A stretch of DNA of 64,000 nucleotides from Paraburkholderia ginsengiterrae (GTDB taxonomy: Bacteria > Pseudomonadota > Gammaproteobacteria > Burkholderiales > Burkholderiaceae). Positions 6,143-22,785 of this stretch are shown piece by piece. Position numbers and translations under genes: made by a program. The stretch is taken from contig NZ_LXKA01000221.1 of assembly GCF_001645125.1 (NCBI RefSeq), positions 124,001 through 188,000 on the forward strand, in the 5' to 3' direction. Numbering within the stretch: position 1 is the stretch's first letter; each line of letters begins with the position of its first letter. The notes beneath the pieces were generated by a model. It was not told where the DNA came from, searched no databases, and was given only the letters and a program-made list of their open reading frames with translations.

Positions 6143-6832
6143 ATGGCAAATCCGAAACTCGAAGTTCTCACGCCTGCCAACTCGCAGATCATCTTCATCG
6201 ACCACCAGCCGCAAATGGCGTTCGGGGTCCAGTCCATCGACCGTCAGGTCCTCAAGAACAACGTCGTCGGCCTCGCGAAGGCTGCGAAGGTGTTCAACAT
6301 TCCGACCACGATCACGACGGTGGAATCGGAAAGCTTCTCGGGTTACACGTATCCGGAGCTGCTGGACGTGTTCCCGGGTCACAAGATCCTCGAGCGCTCG
6401 TCCATGAACTCGTGGGACGACCAGAAGGTCCGTGACTCGCTCGCTGCGAACGGCCGCAAGAAGGTGGTGGTCGCAGGTCTGTGGACCGAAGTGTGCAACA
6501 ACACCTTCGCTCTGTGCGCGATGGCCGAAGGCGACTACGAAATCTACATGGTCGCCGACGCATCGGGCGGCACGTCGAAGGACGCGCACGACTACGCGAT
6601 GCAGCGCATGATTCAGGCCGGCGTGGTGCCGATGACCTGGCAACAGGTGCTGCTCGAATGGCAGCGCGATTGGGCGCACAAAGAGACGTACAACGACGTC
6701 ATGGCGATCGCCAAGGAGCACTCGGGCGCGTACGGCATGGGCGTGGACTATGCCTACACGATGGTGCACAAGGCTGCGCAGCGCACGTCGGGTTCGCATG
6801 AAGTGCTCGCACCGGTGCCGGCCAAGAAGTAA
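6143..6832 (+). CDS. Isochorismatase-family hydrolase, YcaC-like
   Basis: A 229-residue cysteine hydrolase of the isochorismatase/nicotinamidase fold. Asp20 (IIFIDHQPQM) and Cys118 (AGLWTEVCNN) are at the positions of the catalytic Asp and Cys in YcaC. Arg85 in KILERSSMNSWDD sits where nicotinamidases have Lys. This is the YcaC pattern, whose physiological substrate is not established even in well-studied homologues. Start chosen at 6143 (MANPKLEVL), preceded by CCAGGA; an upstream in-frame ATG at 6095 adds an untypical leader. It is the first gene of the plus-strand cluster. The next gene, an amidohydrolase, follows after 143 bases full of hairpins. Cytoplasmic. Confidence 0.9.
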   Translation: MANPKLEVLTPANSQIIFIDHQPQMAFGVQSIDRQVLKNNVVGLAKAAKVFNIPTTITTVESESFSGYTYPELLDVFPGHKILERSSMNSWDDQKVRDSLAANGRKKVVVAGLWTEVCNNTFALCAMAEGDYEIYMVADASGGTSKDAHDYAMQRMIQAGVVPMTWQQVLLEWQRDWAHKETYNDVMAIAKEHSGAYGMGVDYAYTMVHKAAQRTSGSHEVLAPVPAKK

Positions 6833-6857
6833 GCAGTCGCACCTATCGCTTGAGGGT

Positions 6858-6960
6858 GCGGCCCGCACCTTGTGCGGGCCGCGTCGACCCCCGGATCTAT
6901 CGAGCATCCACCTGCACCGGCGTGCAGGTGGATGCCGCGGCATTCGAGCGCGCAGCGCTC
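6858..6960 (+). promoter_or_regulatory. Three consecutive perfect hairpins before the amidohydrolase start
   Basis: Hairpin 1 (6858-6882) is GCGGCCCGCAC-CTT-GTGCGGGCCGC, an 11-bp perfect stem. Hairpin 2 (6904-6935) is a 14-bp perfect stem, GCATCCACCTGCAC and its complement, around the tetraloop CGGC. Hairpin 3 (6946-6960) is GAGCGC-GCA-GCGCTC, ending six bases before the GAGGA ribosome site at 6966-6970. None is followed by a T-run, so these are not ordinary intrinsic terminators. They could punctuate the operon mRNA, block exonucleases, or set translation of the downstream gene. Confidence 0.7.
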
Positions 6961-6975
6961 CCTATGAGGATCACC

Positions 6976-8844
6976 ATGAATTCCAATACTTCCCAGCCAA
7001 CACCGGCCGAGGTCGTGTTCTTCAACGGCAAGATCGCGACGCAGGATGACAAGCGGTCATTCGCCGACGCGGTGGCCGTCGCGAACGGCCGCATTATCGC
7101 GTCGGGATCGCGCGAAGTCGTGATGCGTCACGTGAACGCCTCGACGCGTCAGGTTGACCTCAAAGGGCGCACGGTCATCCCCGGTCTGAACGATTCCCAC
7201 CTGCACATCATTCGAGGCGGCCTGAACTTCAACATGGAGCTGCGCTGGGACGGCGTGCCGTCGCTCGCGGACGCGCTCGACATGCTGAAGAAGCAGGTAG
7301 CCCGCACGCCGGCGCCCCAATGGGTGCGCGTGGTGGGCGGCTGGAACGAATTCCAGTTTGCCGAGCGCCGTGGACCGACGCTCGAAGAAATCAATGCGAT
7401 TGCGCCGGATACGCCGGTGTTCATTCTGCATCTGTACGACAGCGCGCTCCTGAATGCAGCGGCGCTGCGCGCGGTCGGCTACACCAAGGACACGCCCAAC
7501 CCGCCCGGCGGCGAGATCCAGCGCGACAAGCGCGGCAACCCGACCGGCATGCTGATCGCACGCCCGAACGCCGGCCTTCTGTATGCGACGCTCGCCAAAG
7601 GGCCGAAGCTCGCACCGGAAGATCAGCGCAATTCCACGCTGCACTTCATGCGCGAACTGAACCGTCTCGGCGTGACGAGCGCGATCGACGCGGGCGGCGG
7701 CTATCAGGCTTATCCGGACGACTACGCGGTCATCATGGATCTCGCGAAGCGCAACGAATTGACCGTGCGTATCGCGTACAACCTGTTCACGCAGAATGCG
7801 AAGAAGGAAATCGAAGACTTCGCGAAATGGGTGAAGGTGACCAAGCCCGGCGACGGCGACGATTTCCTGCGCGTCAACGGCGCCGGTGAAATGCTGGTGT
7901 TCTCGGCAGCGGACTTCGAAGACTTTCTCGAGCCGCGCCCGGACCTGCCGGATACGCTGGAAGCCGAGCTGGAAGCGGTCGTCAAACTGCTGGTGGCGAA
8001 TCGCTGGCCGTTTCGCCTGCACGCCACGTATAACGAATCCATCGAGCGCTTCCTCAACGTGTTCGAACGTGTAAACGCCGAGATCCCGTTCAACGGATTG
8101 CGCTGGTTCTTCGACCATTGCGAGACCATTACGCAGAAGAACATCGAGCGGGTGCGTGCGCTCGGCGGCGGCATCGCGATCCAGCATCGGATGGCCTTCC
8201 AGGGCGAATACTTCATCCAGCGATACGGCGAAGAGGCCGTCAAGCGCACCCCGCCGATTCGCCACATGCTCGACGCCGGCCTGCCCGTTGGCGCGGGGAC
8301 AGACGCCACGCGCGTAGCGAGTTTCAATCCGTTCGTGTCGCTGTACTGGATGGTGTCGGGCAAGACGGTCGGCGGCACGGCGATGTATGCCAGCGAAAAC
8401 CGTCTGGACCGGATGGAAGCGCTGCGCCGCTACACGGTAGGCAGTGCATGGTTCTCGAACGAAGACGACCGCAAAGGCGCGCTGGTGCCGGGACATTTCG
8501 CGGACTTCGCGGTGCTGAGCGAAGACTACTTTACCGTCGACGAAGACCGCATCAAGTTCCTCACGTCCGCGATGACGGTGGTGGGCGGCAAGATCGTCTA
8601 CGCCGACGACGAGTTCGCGCCACTCGCACCGCCTGATCTGCCGGTCAGCCCGTCGTGGTCGCCGGTCGCGGAATTCGGCGGCTACAGCCGCTATAAGCCG
8701 ACGGCGGTGGCATGCGTGGATGGCTGCGTGAATCTGTGCGGCGTGCATGCCCACGCACACGGCTGGGCGTGGCGCAAGAACGTCCCGGTCAGCGATTCGA
8801 ACGGCTTCTGGGGCGCATTGGGATGTAGCTGCTTCGCGTTCTGA
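6976..8844 (+). CDS. YtcJ-type metal-dependent amidohydrolase with cysteine-rich tail
   Basis: A 622-residue amidohydrolase-superfamily enzyme. VVFFNGKIATQDD opens the small beta-sandwich domain and the barrel's metal ligands begin with GLNDSHLHI near residue 75. Later ligand regions include PFRLHATYN, WFFDHCETI and GAGTDATR. The YtcJ/NfdA branch cleaves N-substituted formamides or similar amides; the true substrate here is unknown. The ATG at 6976 is preferred because GAGGA lies six bases before it; another ATG at 6964 sits upstream of that site. The last 45 residues (CVDGCVNLCGVHAHAHGWAW and beyond, ending CSCFAF) are rich in Cys and His and lie outside the barrel, an unusual possible metal site. 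A hairpin, GTACGCGT-N10-ACGCGTAC, follows the stop at 8848-8873. Confidence 0.9.
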   Translation: MNSNTSQPTPAEVVFFNGKIATQDDKRSFADAVAVANGRIIASGSREVVMRHVNASTRQVDLKGRTVIPGLNDSHLHIIRGGLNFNMELRWDGVPSLADALDMLKKQVARTPAPQWVRVVGGWNEFQFAERRGPTLEEINAIAPDTPVFILHLYDSALLNAAALRAVGYTKDTPNPPGGEIQRDKRGNPTGMLIARPNAGLLYATLAKGPKLAPEDQRNSTLHFMRELNRLGVTSAIDAGGGYQAYPDDYAVIMDLAKRNELTVRIAYNLFTQNAKKEIEDFAKWVKVTKPGDGDDFLRVNGAGEMLVFSAADFEDFLEPRPDLPDTLEAELEAVVKLLVANRWPFRLHATYNESIERFLNVFERVNAEIPFNGLRWFFDHCETITQKNIERVRALGGGIAIQHRMAFQGEYFIQRYGEEAVKRTPPIRHMLDAGLPVGAGTDATRVASFNPFVSLYWMVSGKTVGGTAMYASENRLDRMEALRRYTVGSAWFSNEDDRKGALVPGHFADFAVLSEDYFTVDEDRIKFLTSAMTVVGGKIVYADDEFAPLAPPDLPVSPSWSPVAEFGGYSRYKPTAVACVDGCVNLCGVHAHAHGWAWRKNVPVSDSNGFWGALGCSCFAF

Positions 8845-8892
8845 CCGGTACGCGTTTGTGCCACCACGCGTACGACCACGCAAGCGAGGACC

Positions 8893-10365
8893 ATGATGCC
8901 GACCCTGACCGACGGTGTGCTGTTTGGGCTGGGCATCCTGGTCCTCGATTTCCTTGCATGGCGCTTCATGGACCGCAAGAGCGGCCAGATGCGGCTCGCC
9001 TTGCGTGCCCTCATGTTCGGTCTGTCGACCTACGTGCTGTTCCGCTCGGGGATGTATCCGCTGCGCGCGGCGCCCTGGCCGGACGAGCCGCTGCGCCATC
9101 TGCTCGCGCAGTTTCTGGAGGTGGTCTGGTGGTTGCAGGGTGCGCGCCTCGTGATCATCGTGCTCGATCGCGTGGTGCTGCCCGAGACGTGGCACAAGGA
9201 GCGCCTGTTCCAGGACGTGCTGGGCGCGCTGGTGTTCATGGCCGCTGCGGTGGGGGCGATCGCGTTCGTGCTGCAACTGCCGGTGAAGGGCCTGCTCGCC
9301 ACCTCCGGCGCGCTCGCCGTGGTGCTTGGCCTTGCGATCCAGAGCACGCTCAACGATGTGTTTTCCGGCGTCGTGCTGAACGCCACGGAGCCGTTTCAGA
9401 TCGGCGACTGGGTGACGATCGGCGACGTGGAAGGCAAAGTGGTTGAAAGCAACTGGCGTGCGACGAGCCTGCTGAACAGCCAGGGCAATATCGTCGTGAT
9501 TCCGAACAGCGTGGCGGCGCGCACCAATATCGTCAACGCCAACGAACCGTCGCATACGCACGGCATCAGCATCGTGCTGCCGATCAAGCCGACCATCCGT
9601 CCCGCGTTGGTGCTCGAGGCGCTCACCAATGCCGCGGCCAGTTCGGCCGACGTGCTGACCGATCCCAAGCCGCTCGTCAGCGTGCGCCGCGCCACCAACG
9701 ACGCGATCGAGTACGAGATCGTCTGCTACGTCGACGCCCTGAGCAAAAAGATCGGTGTGCGCAACGACCTGTTCGATCTCGCGCACCGGCATCTGCTGTC
9801 CCACGGCGTCGTGTTGCGGCCGCTCTCGGTGCCCGAGCCCATTCTCGACCCGGCAGACGAGAAACATCGCCTGCTGCGCAATGTGCTGATCTTCCAGACG
9901 CTGGAACGCGAAGAGATCTCGCATCTCGCGGCGCAATTGACAAAGCACGAGTTCGATGCCGACGACGTGATCTACACCGCGGCGGACGAGGGCGGCCACG
10001 AGCTGCATATTCTGGCGCAGGGCGTCGCGAAAGCGGTCGTGGCGAAGGGCGGCCGCGAGGTCGAACTGCGCAGGCTTGCGCCGGGTGATTCGATCGGCCA
10101 GTCGGGCGTTCTCGCCGGCGTGCGGACCGCGATCGTCGTGCGTGCCATGACCCGCGCCACGGTGTTCCGGTTGGACAAGAGCGCGTTGACACCGGTGCTT
10201 GCGCAGCGCCCGGAGGTGGTGAAGGAAATGTGCCGCCTGCTGTCGGAACACCATGCCACCGAGGAGCTGGTGCTTGCCGCGCCGAGCAGCGTGGAGGAGA
10301 GCGCCGGGGGTTTTCTGCAATGGATACGCGATGGCGTGCGGCGTTTCCATGAACTGTCGTTTTGA
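8893..10365 (+). CDS. MscS-family mechanosensitive channel with C-terminal cyclic-nucleotide-binding domain
   Basis: A 490-residue protein. Hydrophobic helices lie at about residues 5-22, 35-55, 75-95 and 110-145. The pore-lining helix is seen in GLLATSGALAVVLGLAIQST followed by the MscS beta-domain start LNDVFSGVVLNATEPFQIGD. The C-terminal 150 residues form a cNMP-binding fold (FQTLEREEISHLAAQL, then GDSIGQSGVLAGVRTAIV). The Arg-Thr-Ala of the phosphate-binding cassette is kept, while the usual Glu of GE is Gln. Such channels are ion channels gated or tuned by ligand. AGGA at 8887-8890 fits the second ATG (8896) slightly better than the first. It belongs to the plus-strand cluster, with a second cNMP-domain protein at 13996. 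Confidence 0.9.
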   Translation: MMPTLTDGVLFGLGILVLDFLAWRFMDRKSGQMRLALRALMFGLSTYVLFRSGMYPLRAAPWPDEPLRHLLAQFLEVVWWLQGARLVIIVLDRVVLPETWHKERLFQDVLGALVFMAAAVGAIAFVLQLPVKGLLATSGALAVVLGLAIQSTLNDVFSGVVLNATEPFQIGDWVTIGDVEGKVVESNWRATSLLNSQGNIVVIPNSVAARTNIVNANEPSHTHGISIVLPIKPTIRPALVLEALTNAAASSADVLTDPKPLVSVRRATNDAIEYEIVCYVDALSKKIGVRNDLFDLAHRHLLSHGVVLRPLSVPEPILDPADEKHRLLRNVLIFQTLEREEISHLAAQLTKHEFDADDVIYTAADEGGHELHILAQGVAKAVVAKGGREVELRRLAPGDSIGQSGVLAGVRTAIVVRAMTRATVFRLDKSALTPVLAQRPEVVKEMCRLLSEHHATEELVLAAPSSVEESAGGFLQWIRDGVRRFHELSF

Positions 10366-10476
10366 GCGGGTTCATGGAGTGCCTGCGTCAATTAAGTGTT
10401 TTTAAGAATTCGCCAAAGTCTTAATGGCTTTAATCCGATACGCTGCATTGGACAGGTGCTCCTTGGAGGAGTTGAG

Positions 10477-11118
10477 ATGAGGAAGACCATTGCCGGCGTC
10501 GATATTCCCGACGGCGTCATGGCTCGGGCGGCGACCGAACAGATTCGGGGCACGGAGTCGGAGTTGATGTTCCAGCATGCGCTGAGAGCATTTCTGTTCG
10601 GTGCGCTGACCGGGTATCGCGAGAACCTGGCGTTCGACGCCGAGCTGCTGTATGTCGCCGCCATGTTTCACAACGCCGGTCTGAACGCGAAGTATCAGCG
10701 CTCGCCGCACCGCTTCGAGGTGGACGGCGCGAATGCCGCGCGCGATTTTCTGCGCCAGTACGACGTCGCCGACCATTCGATCGACGAAGTACGGTTGGCG
10801 ATCGCCTTGCACACGACGCCGGGCATTCCGGAACATCTGTCGCCGCTGGTTGCGCTGCTCAGCGCCGGCGTGCAAATGGATGTTCGCGGCGCAAGCCATG
10901 ACGCATTCACCGCGCAGCAGCGCAATGAAATCGTGCAGGCCTGTCCGCGCGAATGCGGTTTCAAGAAGAAGATCATCGAAGCTTACGCGCGTGGCATGGA
11001 GCATCGTCCGGGGACCACGTTCGGCACGGTGAATGCCGACATTCTGGACCGGTGGGATCCGAATTATCGGCGCCTGAATTTTTGCGGACTGGTGCTGGGA
11101 TCGGACTGGCCGAATTGA
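10477..11118 (+). CDS. HD-superfamily protein (cyanamide-hydratase-like) with HN in place of HD
   Basis: A 213-residue alpha-helical protein of the HD phosphohydrolase superfamily, closest by eye to the cyanamide hydratase/DUF-type HD proteins (LLYVAAMFHNAGL, SPHRFEVDGANAARDF, IALHTTPGIPEH). The signature doublet is His65-Asn66: the metal-binding Asp is replaced by Asn. Other ligand-type residues (H in the RFEVDG region, the H of ALHTTPG) remain. The start at 10477 follows GGAGGA (10465-10470); the in-frame extension to 10396 is promoter sequence. It is flanked by the channel gene and XapX in the cluster. It may be a changed-metal enzyme or a binding protein; the substrate is unknown. Confidence 0.85.
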   Translation: MRKTIAGVDIPDGVMARAATEQIRGTESELMFQHALRAFLFGALTGYRENLAFDAELLYVAAMFHNAGLNAKYQRSPHRFEVDGANAARDFLRQYDVADHSIDEVRLAIALHTTPGIPEHLSPLVALLSAGVQMDVRGASHDAFTAQQRNEIVQACPRECGFKKKIIEAYARGMEHRPGTTFGTVNADILDRWDPNYRRLNFCGLVLGSDWPN

Positions 11119-11152
11119 AAGTTGAAGAGTGTTTCAAGAAAGGACGGATAGC

Positions 11153-11401
11153 ATGGGTTACATCATTTCTCTCGGAGTCGGCTTCGGCGTTGGACTTCTC
11201 TATTGGCTACTCAAGGTGCAGTCGCCGGCGCCGCCACTGATTGCGCTGGCCGGGCTGCTCGGCATGGTATTGGGCGAACACGCCATACCGGTCGTCAAAT
11301 CGCAGCTGTTTGCGCAGACGACTGTTCAGAGCGCAGCGCCGGCGCCGGCCGCCGCACCGAAAACATCGGCGGTGCAGGACGCGACCAAGCAGGGCAGCTG
11401 A
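11153..11401 (+). CDS. XapX-domain small membrane protein
   Basis: An 82-residue protein. Two hydrophobic helices (about residues 3-20 and 24-42) contain GVGFGVGLLYWLLKVQSP and PPLIALAGLLGMVLGE, the XapX-domain pattern. A flexible Ala/Pro-rich C-terminus (SAAPAPAAAPKTSA) follows. XapX proteins often sit beside hydrolase genes, and their role is not known. The ATG at 11153 has AAGGA 8 bases upstream; an earlier in-frame ATG at 11129 would place the start before this site. It lies 34 bases after the HD gene, so it is probably co-transcribed. Confidence 0.85.
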   Translation: MGYIISLGVGFGVGLLYWLLKVQSPAPPLIALAGLLGMVLGEHAIPVVKSQLFAQTTVQSAAPAPAAAPKTSAVQDATKQGS

Positions 11402-11464: not shown

Positions 11465-12421
11465 ATGTTCAAACCGCTTTATCGTCTCCGCGCACTGGCG
11501 TCCGTCTGCGCCGTGGTACTGATTGGACTGACACCGGCTGCATCCGCATTCGCCGATAACGGGCAGCCGGAGGTGGCAACCGGAAAACCCGCGGCCGCCG
11601 CCGTCGCGCGGCACCCCGACGTATCGGTGGGTGCGCAGTACGACACGACGCACGTGTACGTGGCGTCGGCCGATCTCGACGCGTTCGTGACCAGCTTTCT
11701 CGCCACCTTCGGCGGCAAGGCATCGCCACGTGCGGTGTTCACGGTGACGCCCACGCCGAGCAAGACCGCGTCGCAGTACGTGCAAACGCCGGTCGGCATG
11801 CTGTCGGTGTTCGGTTTCGAAACGGCGATTCCGTATCCGTTCGGCAATGAGCGAACCGGCTATCTGGTCACCGATATCGACAAGGCGGTGCAAGCCGCGC
11901 GTGCGGCCGGCGCCGACGTCGTCGTCGAGCCGTTCGACGATCCGATCGGCAAGGACGCGATCATTCAATGGCCGGGCGGGCTGACGATGCAGCTCTACTG
12001 GCACACCAAGGCGCCGAACTATGCGCCGCTGCAGAGCGTCCCGGACAACCGCGTGTATGTGTCGCGCTACGAAGTGGACAACTTCGTGCACCGCTGGGTG
12101 CGTTTCTCGCACGGCAAGGTGGTGTCGGACGACAAGAATGCCGATGCAGGCGTGATCGGCCGGCCGGGCGAGACGATCCGTGTGATCCGCATCAAGTCGG
12201 GCTTCGGCCAGATGATCGTGTTCGTCACGGACGGCAAGCTGCCGGTTCCGTTCGGAACCGAAACGACCGGCTATAGCGTGGACGATGTCGCCCAGACGAT
12301 CGAGCGCGCACAAGCGGCCGGCGCGAAGGTGCTGTCCCAGCCGTACCACAGCGCGACGGGCACGACTGCCATGCTGGAGTTCCCGGGCCGGTACATCGCC
12401 GAAGTGCACGATGGCAAGTGA
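11465..12421 (+). CDS. Exported glyoxalase/VOC-superfamily protein, two domains
   Basis: A 318-residue protein with a signal peptide (about residues 1-30: positively charged MFKPLYRLR, hydrophobic VCAVVLIGL, cleavage near ASAFA-D). Two VOC halves follow: VSVGAQYDTTHVYVASADLD to the EPFDDPIGKDAI region, then NRVYVSRYEVDNFVHRWV to the C-terminus. Glyoxalase-fold enzymes use a divalent metal held by residues from both halves. An exported version is unusual and suggests binding or lysis of a ligand in the periplasm. The start codon has only a weak ribosome site. The end overlaps the next gene by 11 bases. The substrate is unknown. Confidence 0.82.
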   Translation: MFKPLYRLRALASVCAVVLIGLTPAASAFADNGQPEVATGKPAAAAVARHPDVSVGAQYDTTHVYVASADLDAFVTSFLATFGGKASPRAVFTVTPTPSKTASQYVQTPVGMLSVFGFETAIPYPFGNERTGYLVTDIDKAVQAARAAGADVVVEPFDDPIGKDAIIQWPGGLTMQLYWHTKAPNYAPLQSVPDNRVYVSRYEVDNFVHRWVRFSHGKVVSDDKNADAGVIGRPGETIRVIRIKSGFGQMIVFVTDGKLPVPFGTETTGYSVDDVAQTIERAQAAGAKVLSQPYHSATGTTAMLEFPGRYIAEVHDGK

Positions 12422-13949
12422 ATCAATCATCGCAAAGCCGTTGAAGTCACTGAAGGGACGTAAGTGCGCGGCGCGTGTGTTCGCACGGCGCGCCGCCCGT
12501 GCCTTGCTGATCAGCACGGGTCTCGCGGCAGCGCTGCCGGCGTGCGCCGCGGACACCGCGCTCGGCGGTGCCGACGATACCTCCGCGGCAAGCACCGCAA
12601 CGGCAACGGCAGCGGCGGCTTCCACGAGTGCGTCGTGTGCGCGGCCGGCCATCATGTTCAACCGCTGGCAGGAGAACTGGTCGGTCCTCGCGAATCCTTG
12701 CGTGCCGAAACGCCCGCTCGATTCGCTGAAGTACATTCCGCTGTTCGGCAATCCCGACGCGTACATCTCGCTCGGCGTGGTGCTCCGGGAACGCCTGGAG
12801 GTGAACGACGCGCCGCTGTTCGGTCTCGGATCGGGACACGACGATACGTATCTGCTGCAACGCCTCGACGTTCATGCGGATATCCGCCTCGGCCCTCACG
12901 TGCAGATTTTCACGCAATTCGAAGACGCCCGCCCCTACGGCAAGGACAACGTCACGCCGGTCGACAAGAATCCGCTGGACTTGCGCCAGGCGTTCCTCGC
13001 CATTACCGAGCCGCTTGGGCCGGGTACGTTCAAGTTCCGCGTCGGCCGGCAGGAAATGGCGTTCGACTTGCAGCGTTTCGTCTCGGTTCGCGATGGCCCG
13101 AACGTGCGCCAGGCGTTCGACGCGGTGTGGGCCGACTATGAAACCGGTCCGTGGCGCTGGATCGCCTATGCGACGCAACCGGTGCAGTATCGCGACAATT
13201 CCGATTTCGACGACATCTCCAATCGCGATCTGACGTTCAGCGGCGTGCGCGTGGAGCGCAAGGGCGTGGGCCCGGGCGATCTGTCCGCGTATTACTCCCG
13301 CTACAACCGCAGCAACGCGCGCTTTCTCGACGCGATCGGCGGCGAGCATCGCGACGTGTTCGACGTGCGCTATTCGGGCAATGTCAACGCCATCGACTGG
13401 GACGCCGAGGGGATGTATCAGACGGGCCATGTCGGCAGCAGCACGATCGGTGCGTGGGCGGTGGGCTCGCTCGCCGGCTATACGCTGAAGGCCGTGCCAT
13501 GGACACCGCGGATCGGCCTTCAGGTCGACGCCGCGTCGGGCGACACGCATCCGGGCGACGGCCGCGTCGGCACGTTCAATCCGCTCTTCCCGAACGGATA
13601 CTACTTCGCGCTGGCCGGCTATACCGGCTACTCGAACCTGATTCACGTCAAGCCGTCGCTGATCCTCAAACCGAACAGCAAGCTGTCGCTGCTGGCCGGC
13701 GTGGGGCTGCAATGGCGCGAGACCACCGCTGACGCGGTCTATCAGCAAGGCTCGGCCGTCGTGCCGGGCACAGCGGGACACGGCAGCCGCTGGACGGGTT
13801 TCTATACGCAGCTGCGCGCCGACTGGGCGGTCGCCGCGAATCTTGCCGCCGCGCTTGAAGCCGTGCATTTCCAGGTTGGACCGTCGCTGCGCGAACTCGG
13901 CGCCCGCAATTCCGACTACATAGGCGCGGAACTGAAATTTGGCTGGTAG
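12411..13949 (+). CDS. Outer-membrane porin, alginate_exp family
   Basis: A 512-residue protein. A charged N-terminus and hydrophobic stretch (RALLISTGLAAALPACA, about residues 30-48) form the signal. After a low-complexity Ala/Thr/Ser linker, the barrel domain begins around residue 95 with ISLGVVLRERLEV. Alternating strands follow, such as TFKFRVGRQEMAFDLQRFVS and GAWAVGSLAGYTLKAV, ending in ELKFGW with the terminal aromatic typical of barrels. The family includes AlgE-like and other substrate-specific porins. The start at 12411 lies inside the end of the glyoxalase-fold gene, in another frame. It probably admits the substrate handled by the exported VOC protein or the hydrolases upstream. 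A small hairpin (13959-13980) follows it. Confidence 0.87.
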   Translation: MASESIIAKPLKSLKGRKCAARVFARRAARALLISTGLAAALPACAADTALGGADDTSAASTATATAAAASTSASCARPAIMFNRWQENWSVLANPCVPKRPLDSLKYIPLFGNPDAYISLGVVLRERLEVNDAPLFGLGSGHDDTYLLQRLDVHADIRLGPHVQIFTQFEDARPYGKDNVTPVDKNPLDLRQAFLAITEPLGPGTFKFRVGRQEMAFDLQRFVSVRDGPNVRQAFDAVWADYETGPWRWIAYATQPVQYRDNSDFDDISNRDLTFSGVRVERKGVGPGDLSAYYSRYNRSNARFLDAIGGEHRDVFDVRYSGNVNAIDWDAEGMYQTGHVGSSTIGAWAVGSLAGYTLKAVPWTPRIGLQVDAASGDTHPGDGRVGTFNPLFPNGYYFALAGYTGYSNLIHVKPSLILKPNSKLSLLAGVGLQWRETTADAVYQQGSAVVPGTAGHGSRWTGFYTQLRADWAVAANLAAALEAVHFQVGPSLRELGARNSDYIGAELKFGW

Positions 13950-13995: not shown

Positions 13996-15717
13996 ATGAA
14001 CACTTCCGATTTATCCGCCGACGCGATGACAGCGTCGGAACTCGATGTACCGAACTCCTCGCTGGAGTACCGCCGGCACCAGATGTTTCCCCGCCTTTCA
14101 GCGGCGGAGATTCAAAGTTTGCGGCGCTTCGCGCGGCCCATGTCGTTCAAGTCCGGCGAACTGATCTTCAAGACGGGGGAAGTCGCGCTCGGCCTGTTCG
14201 TGTTGCTGAGCGGGCGCGTGAGGATCTATTCGCTCGACAGTTTCGGCCGCTCGACGCTCGTCACCGAACATGAAGACGGGCACTTCATGGCCGAGATGGC
14301 GCAGCTCTCCGGCAAGCCGGCCCTGATCGACGGCATCGCGCTGACCGACGTCGAGACGCTCATGATCGAGCCGGACAAGCTGCGCGCGCTGATCGTGGCC
14401 GATGCGCAACTGGGCGAGCACATCATGCGCGCGCTGATCCTGCGGCGGCTTGGACTGATCGAGCAGGGGCTCGGGCCGATCATCGTGGGCGACGGCGACT
14501 GCTCGAAGCTGGTGGGGCTGCAGGGTTTTCTGCGGCGCAATGCCTACCCGGCGACGGTTGTCGACGCGCGCAGCGATCCCGAGGCGATCACGCTCCTGAG
14601 CGGCATGACGACCGGCCCCGACGACTTTCCGCTGGTGTTCTGTCCGAACGGCAATGTGCTGCGTGCGCCGGACGAGGTCCAGCTCGCGTCGTGCCTTGGA
14701 CTCGTGCCGACCTTCGAGCAGTCGCACGTGTATGACGTGGCGATTGTCGGCGCCGGGCCTGCCGGGCTGGCGGCGTCCGTCTACGCGGCCACGGAAGGCC
14801 TGTCGGTTGCCGTGTTCGATCAACGTGCGCCGGGCGGCCAGGCCGGCGCCAGCTCGCGCATCGAGAATTACCTGGGCTTTCCGACCGGCATTTCGGGCCA
14901 GGCACTCGCCGCGCGGGCGTTCCAGCAGGCGCTGAAGTTCGGCGCGCATCTGGCGATTCCCGGCAAGGTCACGTGCGTGAGCCGTCACGAAGGCATCTTT
15001 CTGCTGGCGCTGCTCGACGGGCAGCGCATCAGTGCCCGCACGGTGGTGGTCGCGAGCGGCGCCGCGTATCGCAAGCCATCGGTGAACGGCTTCGAGCGCT
15101 TCGACGGTCGCGGCACGTTCTACTGGGCGTCGACGATCGAGGCCAAGCTGGTGAAAGGGCAGGACATCGTGTTGATCGGCGGGGGCAATTCCGCCGGGCA
15201 GGCGATCGTGTTTCTCGCCAACTTCGCGCGCAGCATCCGCGTGCTGATTCGTGGCAAGGATCTCGAGGCCAGCATGTCGAAGTACCTGATCGACCGGATC
15301 GGCTCGCTGCCCAACGTGACGCTGTGCACGCGCTGCACGCTGCATGCGCTCGACGGCGACGAAGCCGGACTCACCCACGTCCGCGTCCGCCACGAGCGCG
15401 AGGATGACGACGAAGTCGTCGCGACGCGCCATCTGTTTCTCTTCGTCGGCGCGGACCCGAAGACCGATTGGCTCGAATCGAGCGGCGTGGAGCTCGATAA
15501 CCGAGGGTTTGTCGTGACAGGCTTTGCCCGCAACGAGCATAGCCTGCCCGAAGGAGGCGAGCACTATCCGCTCGAGACCAGCTTGCCGGGCATGTTTGCC
15601 GTTGGCGACGTGCGTTCGGAGTCGGCGAAACGGGTGGCCGCGGCGGTAGGAGACGGCGCAGCCGTGGTCGCTCAGATTCATGCCTACCTGAGCCAGTTGA
15701 AGGCTGCAATCGTGTAG
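13996..15717 (+). CDS. cNMP-domain thioredoxin-reductase-like flavoprotein lacking the CxxC
   Basis: A 573-residue fusion. Residues about 20-150 are a cNMP-binding-type beta-roll (GELIFKTGEVALGLFVLLSG), but the cassette reads AEMAQLSGKPALIDG without the Arg needed for phosphate contact. Residues about 165-245 form a small glutaredoxin/receiver-like domain. The rest is a class-II thioredoxin reductase fold, with an FAD motif (GAGPAG, about 251) and an NADPH motif (GGGNSAG, about 394). At the site of the redox pair the sequence is YWASTIEAK (about 376), with no cysteines, so it cannot work as a normal thioredoxin reductase. GAGG precedes a GTG (13993) and an ATG (13996); ATG is preferred. Related fusions are often neighbours of two-component genes. 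Confidence 0.88.
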   Translation: MNTSDLSADAMTASELDVPNSSLEYRRHQMFPRLSAAEIQSLRRFARPMSFKSGELIFKTGEVALGLFVLLSGRVRIYSLDSFGRSTLVTEHEDGHFMAEMAQLSGKPALIDGIALTDVETLMIEPDKLRALIVADAQLGEHIMRALILRRLGLIEQGLGPIIVGDGDCSKLVGLQGFLRRNAYPATVVDARSDPEAITLLSGMTTGPDDFPLVFCPNGNVLRAPDEVQLASCLGLVPTFEQSHVYDVAIVGAGPAGLAASVYAATEGLSVAVFDQRAPGGQAGASSRIENYLGFPTGISGQALAARAFQQALKFGAHLAIPGKVTCVSRHEGIFLLALLDGQRISARTVVVASGAAYRKPSVNGFERFDGRGTFYWASTIEAKLVKGQDIVLIGGGNSAGQAIVFLANFARSIRVLIRGKDLEASMSKYLIDRIGSLPNVTLCTRCTLHALDGDEAGLTHVRVRHEREDDDEVVATRHLFLFVGADPKTDWLESSGVELDNRGFVVTGFARNEHSLPEGGEHYPLETSLPGMFAVGDVRSESAKRVAAAVGDGAAVVAQIHAYLSQLKAAIV

Positions 15718-15794: not shown

Positions 15795-18700
15795 GTGAGC
15801 GGGGGGGCATTCATCGAGGGCGGTCAGGGCGTGTCGCCGGACCTTGGTGCAACGATGCACTTCGACCAGGCGTGGTTCGATCGGCTCTCGCTCGAAGCCC
15901 TGCTGGTTGATGGGAACATCGTGCGTTATCGCGCGAGATCGCAGGACACCACGCAGTCGTGGCTGATCGCGGTACCGACCGATCTGCCCTCGGAAGCGGT
16001 GTTGCGGCGCTTGCAGCAGGAATTCGCGCTGGCCGGCCGGCTCGATTCGAGCTGGGCCGTGCGGCCGCTGGCACTCGTGCGGCTATCGCGGGGCCCTGTG
16101 CTCGTGTACGAAGACAACGGCGGCACGTTGGTTCTGCCCCCCGCCGACGGGCGGATTGCGGTCAGCCGGCTGCTGCGCATCGCGGTCGGCGCCGCGCATG
16201 CGCTGCGTCGCGCGCTCGCGTGCGGCATTCTGCATCACGACCTCAAGCCGTCCAACCTGCTGGAAGGTCGCGACGGCACCATCCGCTTGCTGGGCTTTCG
16301 CGACGCCGTCAAAACTGCCGGCGATCCGCTCGCCGAAGCGCCGGATACCTTGTATGGGACGCTCGCCTATATGTCGCCGGAACAGGCGCGGCGAGCGGAA
16401 GGGCAGGCCGATGAACGAAGCGATCTTTATTCGCTCGGCGTGACGATCTATGAACTGCTCACCGGGCAATTGCCGTTCGAGGCGGCGGATCCGGTCGAGT
16501 GGGTGTATGCCCACGTGGCGCGTCAGCCCGCCGACCCGCGGCAACACCGTCAAACTGTCCCCGCTGTGCTGGGCTCGATCGTCCTCAAGCTGCTGGCCAA
16601 AAATCCCGCGGAGCGCTATCAAAGCGCCTCGAGTCTCGAAGCGGATCTACGCCGTTGTCTGGCGGGCTGGAACGAGATGCAGCATATCGTTCCCTTCGAG
16701 CCCGCCGCTGAGGACAATGTTAGAAACCTCGCCATCACGCATCGCCTGTTTGGCCGCACGCGTGAATACAACACGCTGCTCGAGGCATTCGAGCGCAATG
16801 CGCGGCAGGGCAAGGCGGAACTGATCTTCGTGTCCGGCTACTCGGGCGCGGGCAAATCGGAACTCGTGCGCAGCGTGCACCGCGCGACCGCGCAGACACC
16901 TGCGCTGTTCGCCTCGGGAAAGCTCGAACAGTACGGCCAGAACGCGCCGTACGCGCCGCTGATGCAGGCGATACGGTCGCTCTTCCAGCGCATTCTGGGG
17001 GAGATCGACAGTGAGCTGGACTGCTGGCGAGACGCACTGCGCGCAGCCGTCGGGCTGCAAGGCAAACTGCTCGTCAGCTATAGCCCCGAACTGGAACTGG
17101 TGCTCGGCGCGCAGCCGGACGTGCCGGACCTGCCGCCGGTGGAAGCGCAGCTGCGTTTTCAGGCGCTGCTCACGCGCCTCTTGTCCGTCTTCGCGAACGA
17201 GGCGCACCCGCTTATCCTTTTTTTCGACGACGTTCACTGGTTCGACGACGCCACGCTGAATTTCATCGCCAGTTTCCTGACGACGGTCGAAGACCGGCAT
17301 GTGCTGCTGATCTGCGCGTATCGGGTCAACGAAGTCGACCGGTCGCCGAGGTTCAAGGCTTTCCTGAATGGCTTGCCAGGCTGCAATGGCACGACACGTA
17401 TCTCCACGATCGAGGTGGAGCCGCTCGATGTCGCGAACGTCGCGGCCTTGCTGGCAGACGCGCTGCATTGCGGTTCCGCGCACGTGTATCCACTGGCCGC
17501 GGTCGTTCACGAGAAGACGGGCGGCAATCCTTTATTCGTCAAACAATTGCTGCTTGCGCTCGCCGACAACCGGTTGATCCGCTATGACGGTGTGACCGGC
17601 TGTTGGACATGGGATATCGATTCCATTAGCGAATACGAGTCGTCCGATAACGTCGTCGACCTGATGGTGGCGCGCCTGTCGAGACTGCCCGCGCAAGCGC
17701 TGGCCGTTCTCAAGCTGCTTGCGGCGATGGGCCGGCGGCTCAACAAGGCGACCCTGGCGCGGATCGATCCTGACGGCGGCGTGGACCTGGAGCGGCGTCT
17801 CCTTCCCGCGTTGGAGGCGGGGCTGATCGTCTCGGACCGCACGGGTTATGCCTTCGCGCACGACCGGGTTCAGGAGGCGGCGTATGCGCTGATCGCGCAG
17901 GAGGATCGAGGCTGCGGCCATGCCCGGATCGCGCGCATTCTGCTGGAAGACTTCGACGAACGCGATGCGCGAAAACCTGCATTCGACGTTGTTCACCATA
18001 TTGAGCGCGCGCAGGCAGCGGGGACCTTGTGCGAACTGGGCGCGCACGAAACGGCTGCTTTCGCCCGAATCTGTCTGCAGGCGGCACGTCAAGCCAAAGA
18101 AGCGATTGCCATCCAGTCCGCGCTGAAGTACCTGGACGTCGGGCAGAAACTGCTCGACGCCAGTGGCGAAGACTATTCGCAATCGCTCGGTTACGAGATC
18201 GGCATTCTGCGGGTGCAATGCCACATTTGCGATGCGAACTTCGACGCCGCCGGCGACCAGATCGAGAAGCTGCTGAGCCAGAATCTGTCGATCATCGCGC
18301 GTGCCTCGGTGTACAAGCTGAAAGCCGACATGCAGCAGCATCTGTCGGACTACGAAGCGGCCGTCGACACGGTTCTCGAAGGCCTCAAACTGTTTGGCAC
18401 CTGCCTGCCGCGCTATCCGGACGCAGCGGAGGTCGAGGCCGCTTACGGGCGGCTCAATGAATCGCTCGGCACGCGCACCATTGCCTCGCTCGCCGAATTG
18501 CCGCCTTTGAGCAATGCGGCGATCGAAGCGGAAATGAGTCTGCTGGCGAGTGTCTTCGCGCCCGCATCGTTCGTGAATGGGCGGCTTGGCTTCCTGCACC
18601 TGTGCCATATGGTGCAGCTCACCATCGACCACGGTATCACGGCAGCCTCGGCGCATTGCTTCGCGTGGTTCGGCGTGTACGTGGCGGAAACCTTCGGCCG

Positions 18701-21386
18701 GTATGCGGAAGGTTTCGAATTCTCCCGTCTGGCGCAAACCCTGGTTGCCGAGCGCGGCTATCATGCGATGGCCACGAGCACGCTGGTGGCGCTCGATCAG
18801 GTCGCTGTGTGGACCCAGCCGCTGTCATACGCGCTGGAATGCGCCCGCGCCGCCTTCGAGTCGGCTCGCCCGAGCGGCGACCTGACCATGAGCTGCTACG
18901 CGTGCAATCACATCGTGTCGGACCTGCTGATCCAGGGCGCGCCGCTGGAGCAGGTCGACAAGGAAATCGACCTGGGGTTGTCGTTCGCACGGCGTATGCG
19001 TTTCAAGGACGTCGAAGGCATTCTTGAACTGCAGAAGCGCTTCGTCCACAGTTTGACGGGCGGCCCCGGCTTGCCGGGTAACTTCGGCGTCGTTGTCGAC
19101 GGCAGAATGACGTTCGACGCCGGCCTGCTCGATACCCAGATGACCACGCTGCGCTTCTGGATCTGGCTGCTGAAAGGCGTCTCCTGCTATTTGCATGGCG
19201 ACTATGAGAACGCCCGGTATTGTCTGGACGAAGCCGGTGAGTTGAAGTGGTCGACACCGGCCCACATTCATCTGCTCGACTATCACTTCTACTCGGCGCT
19301 CAATCTCGCGAAGGTGCGCGGCAATGAACAGGATGCGTCCGCCACGGTCGCTCGAATCGAGCCGCATCTGGCGAAACTGCGCCATTGGGCGCAGCTCAAT
19401 CCGGCCACGTTCACGGACAAGCTCCTGTTAGTCGAGGCCGAAGTGGAGCGGCTTAGCGGCTCGCCGCTCGCGGCGCTGTCGCTGTACGAGCGGGCCGCCG
19501 AGGCGGCGGCGCAGGACGGGTTCAATCACGGCAACGCGCTGGCTCACGAACTCGCGTCGGCATGTTCCGAGGCGAATGGCCTCTTCAGTGCGGCGCGCCA
19601 TCACAGCCGTTGCGCGATCGAAGGCTACATGCGCTGGGGCGCGCAGGCCAAAGTCGCGCAGCTCGAACGTGGCCAGCGTTCTGCCCAGCCTTCGCTCGAC
19701 CGGCTCGCGGCGTCGCGGCCTTCCGTTGAAATACCCGAGGCGCAGCAGCAGTTCGACCTCGTGTCCGTATTGAAGTCGTCGCAGGCGCTCTCCGAGGAGA
19801 TCGTGCTCGACAAACTGATCCGCACGCTCGTGACGCTTGCCATCGTTCATGCCGGCGCGCAAAGCGGCATGCTGATCCTGTTGAAGGGCAATGTTCCCGT
19901 TGTTGAGGCGACCGGGCGCGACGGGCCGGGCGGCGTGCAGGTGAGTTTGGGGCAGGACCAGGCGGCGTGCGAGGGTGTGCCGGCTTCCGTGCTGTACACG
20001 GCATTGCGTACCCGCAAGCCGGTCGTGGTGGAAGACGCGCAATACGATCCGCAGTTCTCGTTCGATGCGTCCTTCACGAACCGTCTGGTTCGTTCGGTGT
20101 GCTGTTTACCGCTCGTCAAGCAGGGTAACGTGGTTGGCGTGCTTTATCTGGAGAACAATCTGACCGCGGGCGTGTTTACGGCAAGCCGCACGTCGGTGCT
20201 GGAAATGCTGGCTACGCAAGCCGCTATTTCGCTTGAAACTGCCCGCCTTTATGCGGAACTCGTGGAAGAGAACGCACGGCGCCAGGAAACGGAGGCGGCG
20301 CTGCGCATGAGCGAGGAGGCGCTCGCGCTGGGGCAACGGATCAGCCGCTCGGGAAGCTATATCTGGAACGCGCTGACAGGCGAGCGCTACTGGTCGAAAG
20401 AGCTTTACAACGTGTTCGGCCTGCCCATCGAAGCAGGGAGCCCGAGCACCCAGGCCGTGCTTGAACGGATTCATCCTGAAGACGTCGCTGCCTACCAGCA
20501 GGCGATCACGCGGGCCGCGCACGACCGCACGTCATTCCGGCAGAAGTACCGGATCGTGACACCGCAGGGCGTGATCAAATATCTCGAAGTGCTCGGCGAG
20601 CCTTCGGGCGTCAGCAATTTTGTCGGCGTCGTCACGGACGTCACGGACCGGCACACGACTGAACTGGCCTTGCAGAACGCCAAGATTGAACTGGCGAAAG
20701 CGTCGCGGGCTACCACGATGGGCGAGCTGGCAGCATCCATCGCGCACGAGATCAATCAGCCGTTGGCGTCGATCGTGTCGAATGCAAGCGCGGGACTGCG
20801 CTGGCTCGGCCGTCCTGCGCCGGACATTCCGGAAGCGCTGGCGGGCCTGCGCGATATCGTGAAAGATGGCAAACGGGCCGGCGACATCATCCGGGCGTTG
20901 CAGTCTCTGGCGAAGGAAGCGAAGCCGAGTCTCGTGCCCACCCTCGTCGACGGTGTCATTCGTGAAGTGTTCGACCTCGCGGCCGCCGAAGTCGAGCAGC
21001 GGGGTTTGGCCGTGCGGCTGGATCTGGCAGCCGGGCGTACTGTAATGGCCGACCGGGTGCAATTGCAGCAGGTTCTGTTCAACCTCATCATGAACGCCGC
21101 TGATGCAATGAGTCATCTCGACGCGCGGCAGCGCTTGCTGAGCGTCACGTCTCGCGTCGACGAGCGGGGATCGGTGGTGGTGTCCGTGCGGGACAGCGGC
21201 AGCGGGATCAGTCAGGAGATCGGGGCCCGCATTTTCGACGCATTCTTTACGACGAAAAAAACCGGCATGGGTATGGGACTCGCTATTTGCAAATCCATCA
21301 TTCAGGCGCACGGCGGGACGTTGACCGTCACTGCCGCTCACCCGCGCGGGACGGTGTTCGTTTTCAGCTTGCCAATTGCAGCATAA
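15795..21386 (+). CDS. Giant pseudokinase-ATPase-GAF-PAS-histidine kinase sensor
   Basis: An 1863-residue soluble sensor starting at GTG (GGGAG upstream). The order is: Ser/Thr kinase-like domain (about 10-290); STAND/AAA ATPase with Walker A GYSGAGKS (348-355) and Walker B LILFFDD (about 473-479); long helical repeat region (about 650-1310); GAF (about 1325-1485); PAS (about 1500-1630); HisKA with His1651 (IAHEINQPLASI); and HATPase with NLIMNAADAM, RDSGSGIS and GMGMGLAICKS. In the kinase domain the catalytic loop HHDLKPSN is present. The metal-binding DFG is GFR (167-169) and no VAIK-type Lys is evident, so it looks like a pseudokinase. Its partner may be the convergent regulator, whose stop lies within this gene's last 23 bases. 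Confidence 0.92.
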   Translation: MSGGAFIEGGQGVSPDLGATMHFDQAWFDRLSLEALLVDGNIVRYRARSQDTTQSWLIAVPTDLPSEAVLRRLQQEFALAGRLDSSWAVRPLALVRLSRGPVLVYEDNGGTLVLPPADGRIAVSRLLRIAVGAAHALRRALACGILHHDLKPSNLLEGRDGTIRLLGFRDAVKTAGDPLAEAPDTLYGTLAYMSPEQARRAEGQADERSDLYSLGVTIYELLTGQLPFEAADPVEWVYAHVARQPADPRQHRQTVPAVLGSIVLKLLAKNPAERYQSASSLEADLRRCLAGWNEMQHIVPFEPAAEDNVRNLAITHRLFGRTREYNTLLEAFERNARQGKAELIFVSGYSGAGKSELVRSVHRATAQTPALFASGKLEQYGQNAPYAPLMQAIRSLFQRILGEIDSELDCWRDALRAAVGLQGKLLVSYSPELELVLGAQPDVPDLPPVEAQLRFQALLTRLLSVFANEAHPLILFFDDVHWFDDATLNFIASFLTTVEDRHVLLICAYRVNEVDRSPRFKAFLNGLPGCNGTTRISTIEVEPLDVANVAALLADALHCGSAHVYPLAAVVHEKTGGNPLFVKQLLLALADNRLIRYDGVTGCWTWDIDSISEYESSDNVVDLMVARLSRLPAQALAVLKLLAAMGRRLNKATLARIDPDGGVDLERRLLPALEAGLIVSDRTGYAFAHDRVQEAAYALIAQEDRGCGHARIARILLEDFDERDARKPAFDVVHHIERAQAAGTLCELGAHETAAFARICLQAARQAKEAIAIQSALKYLDVGQKLLDASGEDYSQSLGYEIGILRVQCHICDANFDAAGDQIEKLLSQNLSIIARASVYKLKADMQQHLSDYEAAVDTVLEGLKLFGTCLPRYPDAAEVEAAYGRLNESLGTRTIASLAELPPLSNAAIEAEMSLLASVFAPASFVNGRLGFLHLCHMVQLTIDHGITAASAHCFAWFGVYVAETFGRYAEGFEFSRLAQTLVAERGYHAMATSTLVALDQVAVWTQPLSYALECARAAFESARPSGDLTMSCYACNHIVSDLLIQGAPLEQVDKEIDLGLSFARRMRFKDVEGILELQKRFVHSLTGGPGLPGNFGVVVDGRMTFDAGLLDTQMTTLRFWIWLLKGVSCYLHGDYENARYCLDEAGELKWSTPAHIHLLDYHFYSALNLAKVRGNEQDASATVARIEPHLAKLRHWAQLNPATFTDKLLLVEAEVERLSGSPLAALSLYERAAEAAAQDGFNHGNALAHELASACSEANGLFSAARHHSRCAIEGYMRWGAQAKVAQLERGQRSAQPSLDRLAASRPSVEIPEAQQQFDLVSVLKSSQALSEEIVLDKLIRTLVTLAIVHAGAQSGMLILLKGNVPVVEATGRDGPGGVQVSLGQDQAACEGVPASVLYTALRTRKPVVVEDAQYDPQFSFDASFTNRLVRSVCCLPLVKQGNVVGVLYLENNLTAGVFTASRTSVLEMLATQAAISLETARLYAELVEENARRQETEAALRMSEEALALGQRISRSGSYIWNALTGERYWSKELYNVFGLPIEAGSPSTQAVLERIHPEDVAAYQQAITRAAHDRTSFRQKYRIVTPQGVIKYLEVLGEPSGVSNFVGVVTDVTDRHTTELALQNAKIELAKASRATTMGELAASIAHEINQPLASIVSNASAGLRWLGRPAPDIPEALAGLRDIVKDGKRAGDIIRALQSLAKEAKPSLVPTLVDGVIREVFDLAAAEVEQRGLAVRLDLAAGRTVMADRVQLQQVLFNLIMNAADAMSHLDARQRLLSVTSRVDERGSVVVSVRDSGSGISQEIGARIFDAFFTTKKTGMGMGLAICKSIIQAHGGTLTVTAAHPRGTVFVFSLPIAA

Positions 21387-22785
21387 CGGGAACGTGGCGC
21401 GCGTGCCGCGCGGTGATGTGCTGCTGCTCGCCTTCTGCCTGGAGCTTGGCCAGCGCGTACGCACGGGCCGACTCGGACAGGCGGTATTTCGCCACCGGAC
21501 CCTCGAACTCGACGTTGACCAGCGATTTCGCCGCCAGCTCGCCAATGCTGCCGATCGCGTGCGCCACGGTGTACTCGTCGTCGCACACGACCGCACACAT
21601 CGCCTCGAACGTAAAGGCGTCGGCGAATACCGCAAGACGCCGGAACAGCGACTTGGCGCTCTGATTGAGCAGCGCGAAGCTCCAGTCGAACGTCGCGCGC
21701 AAGGTTTGATGGCGCGGCAGCGCAGTCCGGTAACCGCCTGCCAGAATCGCCATGCGATCGTCCAGCCGGCGATACACGCCTTCCAGGCCGAGCGCGGCGA
21801 CCCGCGCCGCCGCGAGCTCGATCGCGAGCGGAATGCCGTCGAGGCGGCGGCATATCTGGCCGGCGAGCTGGATTTCCGCGCTGTCGCCGCCCACCTTGAC
21901 CTGCAATGAGTTGGCAAGCTGCAGAAACAGCTTCACCGCCGAACACCGCAGGACGTCCGCATCGGTGGAACAGGGTGGCGGCACGTCCAGCGGTTCAACC
22001 CGGAACACCGTTTCGGGCATGATGCGCAGCGGTTCTCTGCTGGTGACGAGCACCCGGAGCGCATCGTTGCCGGCGATCAGTACCTCGACGATGTGCGCTA
22101 CCGCGCCGATCACATGCTCCGCGTTATCGAGCAGAAGCAGCCTGTGCTGCCGGGCCAGCGCCGCCGCCACCTGATCGGCGCTGACTTGCGGGCCGTGCAA
22201 AGGCAGCTCGCAACTCTCGACGATGGCGCGAAGCACGGCCTCCTCGGTCGTCACCACGGCCAGGTCGACAAAGCAGACGGGCTCCGCGAAGTCCGCCGAG
22301 CTATGGTGTGCCGCCTCGATGGCGACACTTGTTTTGCCGATGCCGCCCGCGCCGACCAGCGTCAGCACGTGCGTGTGTTCAAGCATCGCGCGGATTTTCT
22401 TCACTGCTTCGCTGCGCCCCAGCAGTCCGGATTTGGGCGGCGGGAGGCGGCGACAGGCGGCCGCCCGCGAGCCGGCTTCGCAGGACGAGGTGTTTTTCTG
22501 GCGCTGACGCAATTGATACCCGCGTCCAGGCACAGTGAGAATCAGATCCCGGTCCTGACCGAGTACCTTGCGCAGTGCCGACAGATGAACCTGAATGTTG
22601 TTTTCTTCGACGATCGTGTCCGGCCAGACGGTATTCATCAGCTCGTCTTTCGTGACAAGGCGGCCATTGGCGGACGCCACGGCGGCGAGGATGTCGAAGG
22701 CGCGCGACCCGAGTGGAAGGGTTTCGCCATTCTGCTGCAGTGTGCGCATCTCCAGATCAATCTGAAAGCGGCCTAGTTCGATCAT
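21364..22785 (-). CDS. Winged-helix regulator with NB-ARC/STAND ATPase domain
   Basis: A 473-residue regulator. An OmpR/ToxR-type winged helix occupies residues 1-95 (PLGSRAFDILAAVASANGRL then VEENNIQVHLSALRKVLG). A signal-transduction ATPase follows, with Walker A LVGAGGIGKTS near 145, Walker B RLLLLDNAEHV near 220 and the GIPLAIELAAAR sensor motif near 330. It lacks the long helical-repeat effector region of its relative at 30384 and ends shortly after the ATPase winged helix. The ATG at 22785 gives MIELGRF; an in-frame ATG at 22860 adds untypical residues. Its last 23 bases overlap the sensor kinase gene tail-to-tail, and there is no terminator between them. The ligand is unknown. Confidence 0.88.
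   Translation of the reverse strand: MIELGRFQIDLEMRTLQQNGETLPLGSRAFDILAAVASANGRLVTKDELMNTVWPDTIVEENNIQVHLSALRKVLGQDRDLILTVPGRGYQLRQRQKNTSSCEAGSRAAACRRLPPPKSGLLGRSEAVKKIRAMLEHTHVLTLVGAGGIGKTSVAIEAAHHSSADFAEPVCFVDLAVVTTEEAVLRAIVESCELPLHGPQVSADQVAAALARQHRLLLLDNAEHVIGAVAHIVEVLIAGNDALRVLVTSREPLRIMPETVFRVEPLDVPPPCSTDADVLRCSAVKLFLQLANSLQVKVGGDSAEIQLAGQICRRLDGIPLAIELAAARVAALGLEGVYRRLDDRMAILAGGYRTALPRHQTLRATFDWSFALLNQSAKSLFRRLAVFADAFTFEAMCAVVCDDEYTVAHAIGSIGELAAKSLVNVEFEGPVAKYRLSESARAYALAKLQAEGEQQHITARHARHVPVMLQLAS

Follow-up and report, generated by a model that had tools for sequence, protein, structure and literature searches.

The closest described systems come from Pseudomonas aeruginosa, and the accessible portions of the published reports allow the following comparison. 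PA2699 encodes a YtcJ-like amidohydrolase with a working Tat signal (PMC4899797, PMC6085387), and PA2698, PA2699, and PA1202 were upregulated together in the same comparisons, PA2698 and PA1202 being hydrolases (PMC8402870). BexR, a LysR-type regulator, raises PA2698 and PA1202-PA1205, the latter encoding a hydrolase, a redox protein, an FMN reductase, and a pirin homologue (PMC2796861, PMC5521831), and a ChIP-seq peak of CzcR is found at PA2698 (PMC13209446). In E. coli, the available text of a further report describes ycaC as a target of YcaN, the neighboring LysR regulator (PMC9068703).

We analyzed a 64,000-nt stretch of Paraburkholderia ginsengiterrae DNA (the window; all coordinates are positions within it), in which a first-pass annotation had proposed a dedicated module of nine plus-strand genes and one convergent regulator. 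We found all ten genes close to the positions proposed, and profile searches confirmed the families that had been named. As in this module, a probable hydrolase gene is numbered beside a YtcJ-like gene in P. aeruginosa (PA2698-PA2699), and the two pairs are presumably orthologous; the printed PA2699 signal peptide resembles those of the YtcJ proteins encoded in the Pseudomonas loci described below. However, the accessible portions of the P. aeruginosa reports mention no VOC protein, alginate_exp porin, HD protein, flavoprotein, or giant sensor alongside this pair. Our literature search, with most subscription journals outside its reach, found no description of the combination.

Three of the proteins can be set against named families. 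The window hydrolase belongs to the same family as E. coli YcaC (closest solved structures, 1yac and 4wgf), but it represents a separate subfamily outside YcaC itself, reaching 130.1 bits with the YcaC equivalog model NF041461 against a cut-off of 310. Among named families, the HD protein fits best to the cyanamide-hydratase-type HD proteins (TIGR03401), yet its 35.2 bits fall below the cut-off of 109.85 and it does not have the dyad Asp, which places it outside that family. The flavoprotein shares its fold and order of parts with cNMP plus thioredoxin-reductase-like flavoproteins, but it is not a thioredoxin reductase by the TIGR01292 model (210.4 bits, cut-off 343.45) and is without the CxxC motif. 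The genes of the run and its surroundings are as follows.

3428..4660, minus strand: MFS transporter (MFS_1), outside the limits of the first-pass annotation
4848..5819, plus strand: LysR-type regulator (Pfam HTH_1 and LysR_substrate), upstream of the run on the same strand
6143..6832, plus strand: YcaC-like isochorismatase-family hydrolase, core (Isochorismatase, 94 bits)
about 6976..8844, plus strand: YtcJ-type amidohydrolase with a Cys/His-rich C-terminal tail, core (Amidohydro_3, 446.4 bits)
8893..10365, plus strand: MscS-type channel with a C-terminal cNMP-fold domain, accessory (MS_channel_2nd and cNMP_binding)
10477..11118, plus strand: HD-family protein with HN for HD, accessory in Burkholderiaceae, probable pseudoenzyme (Pfam, 21.2 bits)
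about 11153..11401 (open frame from 11129), plus strand: XapX/DUF1427 small membrane protein, core (TIGR03510)
about 11465..12421, plus strand: two-part VOC protein with a signal-peptide-like N terminus, core (Glyoxalase/Glyoxalase_4)
about 12450..13949, plus strand: Alginate_exp-type outer-membrane porin, core in Burkholderiaceae (Alginate_exp, 454.1 bits)
13996..15717, plus strand: cNMP-fold and thioredoxin-reductase-like flavoprotein without CxxC, accessory
15795..21386, plus strand: giant sensor with a kinase-like part, AAA_16, GAF, PAS, and histidine kinase, accessory
21364..22785, minus strand: winged-helix (Trans_reg_C) regulator with an NB-ARC/AAA part, convergent
22996..23910, minus strand: AraC-type regulator (HTH_18), outside the limits of the first-pass annotation

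The YtcJ frame is open from 6850, and the ATG at 6976 was taken as its start. No more than about 145 bases separate any two neighbors among the nine plus-strand genes. A terminator scan gave no excess over shuffles (12 sites; shuffle mean, 15.9), and both observations fit with one or two transcripts. Upstream of the run, a tandem cytochrome c protein and the MFS transporter are encoded on the minus strand (1925-4660), and past the AraC gene lie genes for an Amidohydro_2 protein and a sodium:solute symporter (24165-26995); a relative of this Amidohydro_2 protein is found near the module in region L139. An anti-phage defense reading was rejected, since with PADLOC models nine of the ten proteins were unmatched at 1e-10 and the sensor was matched solely via its kinase-like part.

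A conserved core around the YtcJ-type amidohydrolase

To describe the neighborhood in relatives, we used 35 Burkholderiaceae regions of up to 20 kb anchored on YtcJ (33 distinct loci in 30 genomes), picked from 76 YtcJ places by taking the best matches first and then spreading the choice. The window's own paralogue region (L113) was excluded, and two pairs of regions share one YtcJ (L075/L116 and L078/L119). For controls we used 54 HD-anchored regions in which YtcJ is absent, so that the comparison is silent on the HD link; matches covering less than 40% of the query were dropped. The HD protein was rejected as an anchor for the module: HD matches occur in 66 of 150 genomes of the family, most of these regions being without the other genes, and the apparent refutation given by an HD-anchored search was overturned when the YtcJ-anchored search revealed the module.

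Around YtcJ, the YcaC-like hydrolase was present in 24 of the 35 regions, the VOC protein and the alginate_exp porin in 21 each, and XapX in 19, compared to none of the 54 controls in every case. The neighborhood also includes regulators, namely the winged-helix/AAA class (21/35 versus 1/54), LysR-like (18/35 versus 7/54), and AraC (16/35 versus 4/54) proteins, together with MFS transporters (10/35 versus 1/54). Further neighborhood genes in relatives encode DoxX (16/35 versus 1/54), YoaK-like (14/35 versus 0/54), and alpha/beta-hydrolase (12/35 versus 1/54) proteins. For these 11 families, Fisher P values ranged from 1.3e-13 to 0.00028. Alkene-reductase-like genes were seen in 9/35 versus 2/54 regions and the tandem cytochrome c gene in 10/35 versus 7/54, while differences were not significant for the flavoprotein (3 versus 0), MscS (2 versus 1), and the N-terminal part of the sensor (3 versus 1) in the same 35 and 54 regions. 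The limits first drawn at 6143 and 22785 lie within this conserved neighborhood, which extends past them with LysR and MFS genes upstream and AraC and winged-helix/AAA genes downstream.

The first-pass annotation had suggested looking for at least five of the nine families together in Burkholderiales genomes. At least five occur in 15/35 YtcJ regions and in 15 of 19 Burkholderiaceae loci among the named loci, which are the best 80 of 593 YtcJ matches (19 Burkholderiaceae and 61 other). This amounts to 30/54 Burkholderiaceae YtcJ regions, compared to 0/54 controls; among the 61 named loci from outside Burkholderiaceae (best 80 of 593), none has five. All nine families were found in one region only in L146 (Paraburkholderia elongata) and L147 (a metagenome bin titled Rudaea), the nearest relatives among the best 80 of 593 matches, where the nine genes lie on the same strand and are 77 to 97% identical to those of the window; within the same 80 matches, the P. 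elongata YtcJ is 97% identical to the window protein. L147 appears to be a misbinned Paraburkholderia contig. In many loci (L040, L042, L093, L106, L120, L121, and L138), two XapX genes flank the YcaC-like gene.

These counts bear on whether the neighborhood is a coincidence of an accessory-gene-rich region in a large genome. Most relatives of the flavoprotein, the sensor, and MscS do lie elsewhere and most HD relatives stand alone, as coincidence would have it, but core families found in 19 to 24 of 35 regions against 0/54 controls, and at least five of the nine families in 30/54 Burkholderiaceae YtcJ regions against 0/54, make this explanation highly improbable. The run represents the form that a conserved accessory module takes in one lineage. 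What stands of the proposed dedicated module is a conserved core; one fixed set of nine genes does not, since core and accessories differ. Independent occurrence in relatives, which had been named as evidence against a module, is contradicted by these counts for the core, whereas the flavoprotein, sensor, MscS, and HD genes mostly do occur independently.

The core also reaches beyond Burkholderiaceae, and the cluster is shared by many bacteria from soil or associated with plants. The hydrolase, XapX, and amidohydrolase are encoded together on annotated plasmids of Burkholderia pyrrocinia, Rhizobium, Pantoea, Sinorhizobium, and Novosphingobium, thereby spanning alpha-, beta-, and gammaproteobacteria. 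On the Pantoea plasmid a response-regulator gene and one for a giant AAA protein come after the three genes, and on the Novosphingobium plasmid they are accompanied by genes for an alginate export protein, DoxX, and YoaK. Taken by itself, the hydrolase matched 259 plasmid records, including Rhizobium (92), Pantoea (52), and Sinorhizobium (45). Metagenome bins L147, L164, L186, L197, and L222, titled Rudaea, Gracilibacteria, Deltaproteobacteria, Puniceicoccales, and Acidobacteriaceae, respectively, contain YtcJ at 54 to 97% identity (best 80 of 593). According to the accessible part of one survey, DUF1427 was among nine families confined to plant-associated bacteria in the genomes known by 2005 (PMC554113).

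The core proteins are clear members of their superfamilies. The catalytic triad of the isochorismatase superfamily includes Asp, Cys, and Lys. The YcaC-like hydrolase belongs to this superfamily (Isochorismatase, 94 bits; Pfam cut-off, 27), and the Asp of FIDHQ and the Cys of EVCNN are kept in all 112 distinct matches; in the window protein the triad Asp and Cys are present, and the Lys could not be placed with certainty. The hydrolase slot is held by two paralogue types, of about 50% or 84 to 95% identity, and different loci may therefore act on different substrates. YtcJ is an amidohydrolase by its Amidohydro_3 score (cut-off, 29.7) and by its SHLHI (HxH) and GTDAT (late Asp) motifs, and the HxH, FDH, and GTDAT places are mostly kept in 127 distinct matches. 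After the amidohydrolase domain and outside the Pfam match, its tail carries Cys/His residues at positions 626, 630, 633, 635, 637, 659, and 661 of the 664-residue frame. Among 132 YtcJ matches, from which overlapping regions were not removed, 8 end early, and the seven places are kept in 117 to 122 of the 124 that reach the C terminus. The tail looks like a metal site, and a link to Tat export of the folded protein is possible. Twin-arginine-like motifs precede the domain in 34 of the same 132 matches, mostly from Pseudomonas; the window YtcJ has no Tat motif. XapX (TIGR03510, 68.7 bits; cut-off, 27.8) and the porin (Alginate_exp cut-off, 25.2) belong to their families as well. In the VOC protein the YDTTHVYV motif is kept in 35 of 49 distinct matches, and the signal-peptide-like start was judged by eye.

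Swappable accessory genes

Accessory genes were counted as places within 12 kb of YtcJ in the 150 genomes of the family, the window's own genome being excluded. The expected numbers assume 6.9-Mb genomes and independent places, and related genomes make the resulting P values too small. Near YtcJ were 10 of 65 places of the giant sensor (0.25 expected), 3 of 20 places of MscS (0.07 expected), and 3 of 80 places of the flavoprotein (0.18 expected), leaving 55, 17, and 77, respectively, elsewhere. These three genes are exchangeable accessories: they are overrepresented around YtcJ, yet most of their places lie away from it. The three YtcJ-linked flavoproteins belong to seven places with at least 70% identity, of which the other four are unlinked (L108-L112); in Paraburkholderia largidicola, the flavoprotein gene adjoins the HD gene about 20 kb from the core. 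Full-length MscS relatives are found near YtcJ in Pseudomonas loci.

Both the flavoprotein and MscS contain a cNMP-binding domain (60.4 and 42.7 bits, respectively; cut-off, 27.5). The phosphate-binding cassette of this domain has a Glu and an Arg. In the flavoprotein cassette (FMAEMAQLSGKPALIDGIA) the Glu is kept and the Arg is absent at its usual place, and in the MscS cassette (SIGQSGVLAGVRTAIVV) Gln replaces the Glu. The giant sensor consists, in order, of a kinase-like part, AAA_16, GAF, PAS, HisKA, and HATPase. Its Ser/Thr-kinase-like part is matched only over positions 104 to 257 of the 263-position model, has GFRD where DFG would stand, and is not a protein kinase as defined by an N lobe with Lys and the DFG Asp. 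The C-terminal part is a histidine kinase, with a phospho-acceptor His in AHEINQPL and HATPase_c.

A CxxC-less flavoprotein and a pseudokinase sensor had been read as peculiar to this locus. Both motifs are indeed absent: the flavoprotein has YWASTIEA at the CxxC place. However, CxxC is absent from all 18 distinct flavoprotein matches and DFG from that place in all 13 sensor matches, and as both absences are family-wide in the matches examined, they were rejected as marks of the locus.

Loss of the metal-binding dyad in the HD-family protein

The HD protein falls just below the Pfam cut-off (21.2 bits against 22) and has HN at the dyad, visible directly in the sequence, so that it does not qualify as an HD metal hydrolase. 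We compared 120 distinct copies with at least 130 aligned residues, shorter fragments being dropped, and called a copy linked when at least two module genes lay within 12 kb. The family is mostly stand-alone (77/120 copies). Of the 40 linked copies, the His-Asp dyad is missing from 33, which bears out the singling out of the HN variant, and kept in seven; it is also missing from 1 of the 3 copies with one module gene within 12 kb and from a single stand-alone copy out of 77. These groups were sampled differently, the HD search having supplied the stand-alone copies and the YtcJ search many of the linked ones. The stand-alone exception is a partial copy beside an intact one: in L252/L077, an intact stand-alone HD gene adjoins a partial copy that has YD at the dyad and one internal stop. 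Replacements in the linked copies are AN (17), HN (9), HH (2), and HS, RC, SN, TN, and VN (one each).

In a quick tree of 117 copies, computed with the dyad columns removed, three copies below 170 residues dropped, and SH-aLRT support only, a single group of 41 contains most of the linked copies; L115, L245, L078, and others sit on long branches, where placement is uncertain. The loss label needs 4 changes on this tree, at least 3 of them forced by starred branches, and their direction cannot be read. Linkage and dyad loss follow phylogeny, and the independent cases are therefore few: a test of independent pairs had four, too few for significance.

Median dN/dS was 0.19 for 28 HN pairs, 0.255 for 45 AN pairs, and 0.19 for 44 stand-alone pairs; such low values indicate that the dyad-less copies are not decaying genes. 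They would also suit a protein that has exchanged its dyad for other chemistry, such as a different metal set or metal-free hydrolysis, and is still an enzyme, as would the remaining His, Asp, and Glu positions of the alignment, which are nearly always kept in dyad-less copies. The replacements, though, vary widely (HN, AN, HH, HS, SN, TN, VN, and RC), which fits relaxed metal binding better, and we consider a persisting enzyme unlikely. Since the dyad was repeatedly lost under purifying selection, the HD protein is most likely a non-catalytic partner binding a ligand or another protein, and we infer that a recruited enzyme has become a non-catalytic, probably sensing, partner.

Proposed function of the module

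The porin and the exported VOC protein point outward and the hydrolases inward, so uptake and hydrolysis would be the simplest reading. We tentatively favor, at somewhat less than even confidence, a core that takes up and hydrolyzes a small amide- or hydrazide-like compound, with exchanged regulators and the HD protein as a non-catalytic partner. Both the pathway and the substrate class are proposed here from the protein families, with which the uptake and hydrolysis suggested by the first-pass annotation are compatible; equal membership of all nine genes is not. The porin would admit the compound, perhaps of plant or microbial origin, and the exported VOC protein would bind or modify it in the periplasm. 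YtcJ would then hydrolyze it, in the periplasm where a Tat signal is present and otherwise in the cytoplasm, as is probably the case here; the Tat support for a periplasmic YtcJ is drawn by analogy from P. aeruginosa and relatives. The cysteine hydrolase would complete degradation, with XapX and the MscS channel acting at the inner membrane. The regulators that surround the core (LysR, AraC, winged-helix/AAA, and giant kinase-like sensors) are swapped among lineages, and the HD protein, which would have been recruited into the module, has repeatedly lost its metal-binding dyad under purifying selection.

The main rival, which we regard as quite possible if doubtful, is that the module is an electrophile/redox stress response set, not a catabolic pathway, and detoxifies reactive compounds under LysR/AraC control through its hydrolases and the DoxX, YoaK-like, alpha/beta-hydrolase, and alkene-reductase genes. 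The presence of DoxX and alkene-reductase-like genes in 16 and 9 of the 35 YtcJ regions, against 1 and 2 of the 54 controls, is consistent with such a set, as is the regulation of PA2698 by BexR together with PA1202-PA1205, which include a redox protein and an FMN reductase in the accessible portions of the reports (PMC2796861, PMC5521831). A core outer-membrane porin and an exported VOC protein, on the other hand, suggest the handling of an external compound, and detoxification and catabolism are not exclusive.

Within the uptake and hydrolysis reading, a more specific version, which we hold to be rather unlikely, is that this undescribed proteobacterial module hydrolyzes a specific, perhaps plant-derived, compound, and that the HD pseudoenzyme acts as an internal ligand sensor feeding the flavoprotein, the MscS channel, or the regulators.

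The DUF1427/XapX, YtcJ, YcaC-like, and alginate_exp families, which are without known function, become one testable unit as co-travelling genes; since they travel together, putting a single deletion strain through one substrate screen could be enough to assign all of them. The repeated dyad loss in linked HD copies provides a natural experiment in the conversion of a metal hydrolase into a non-catalytic partner.
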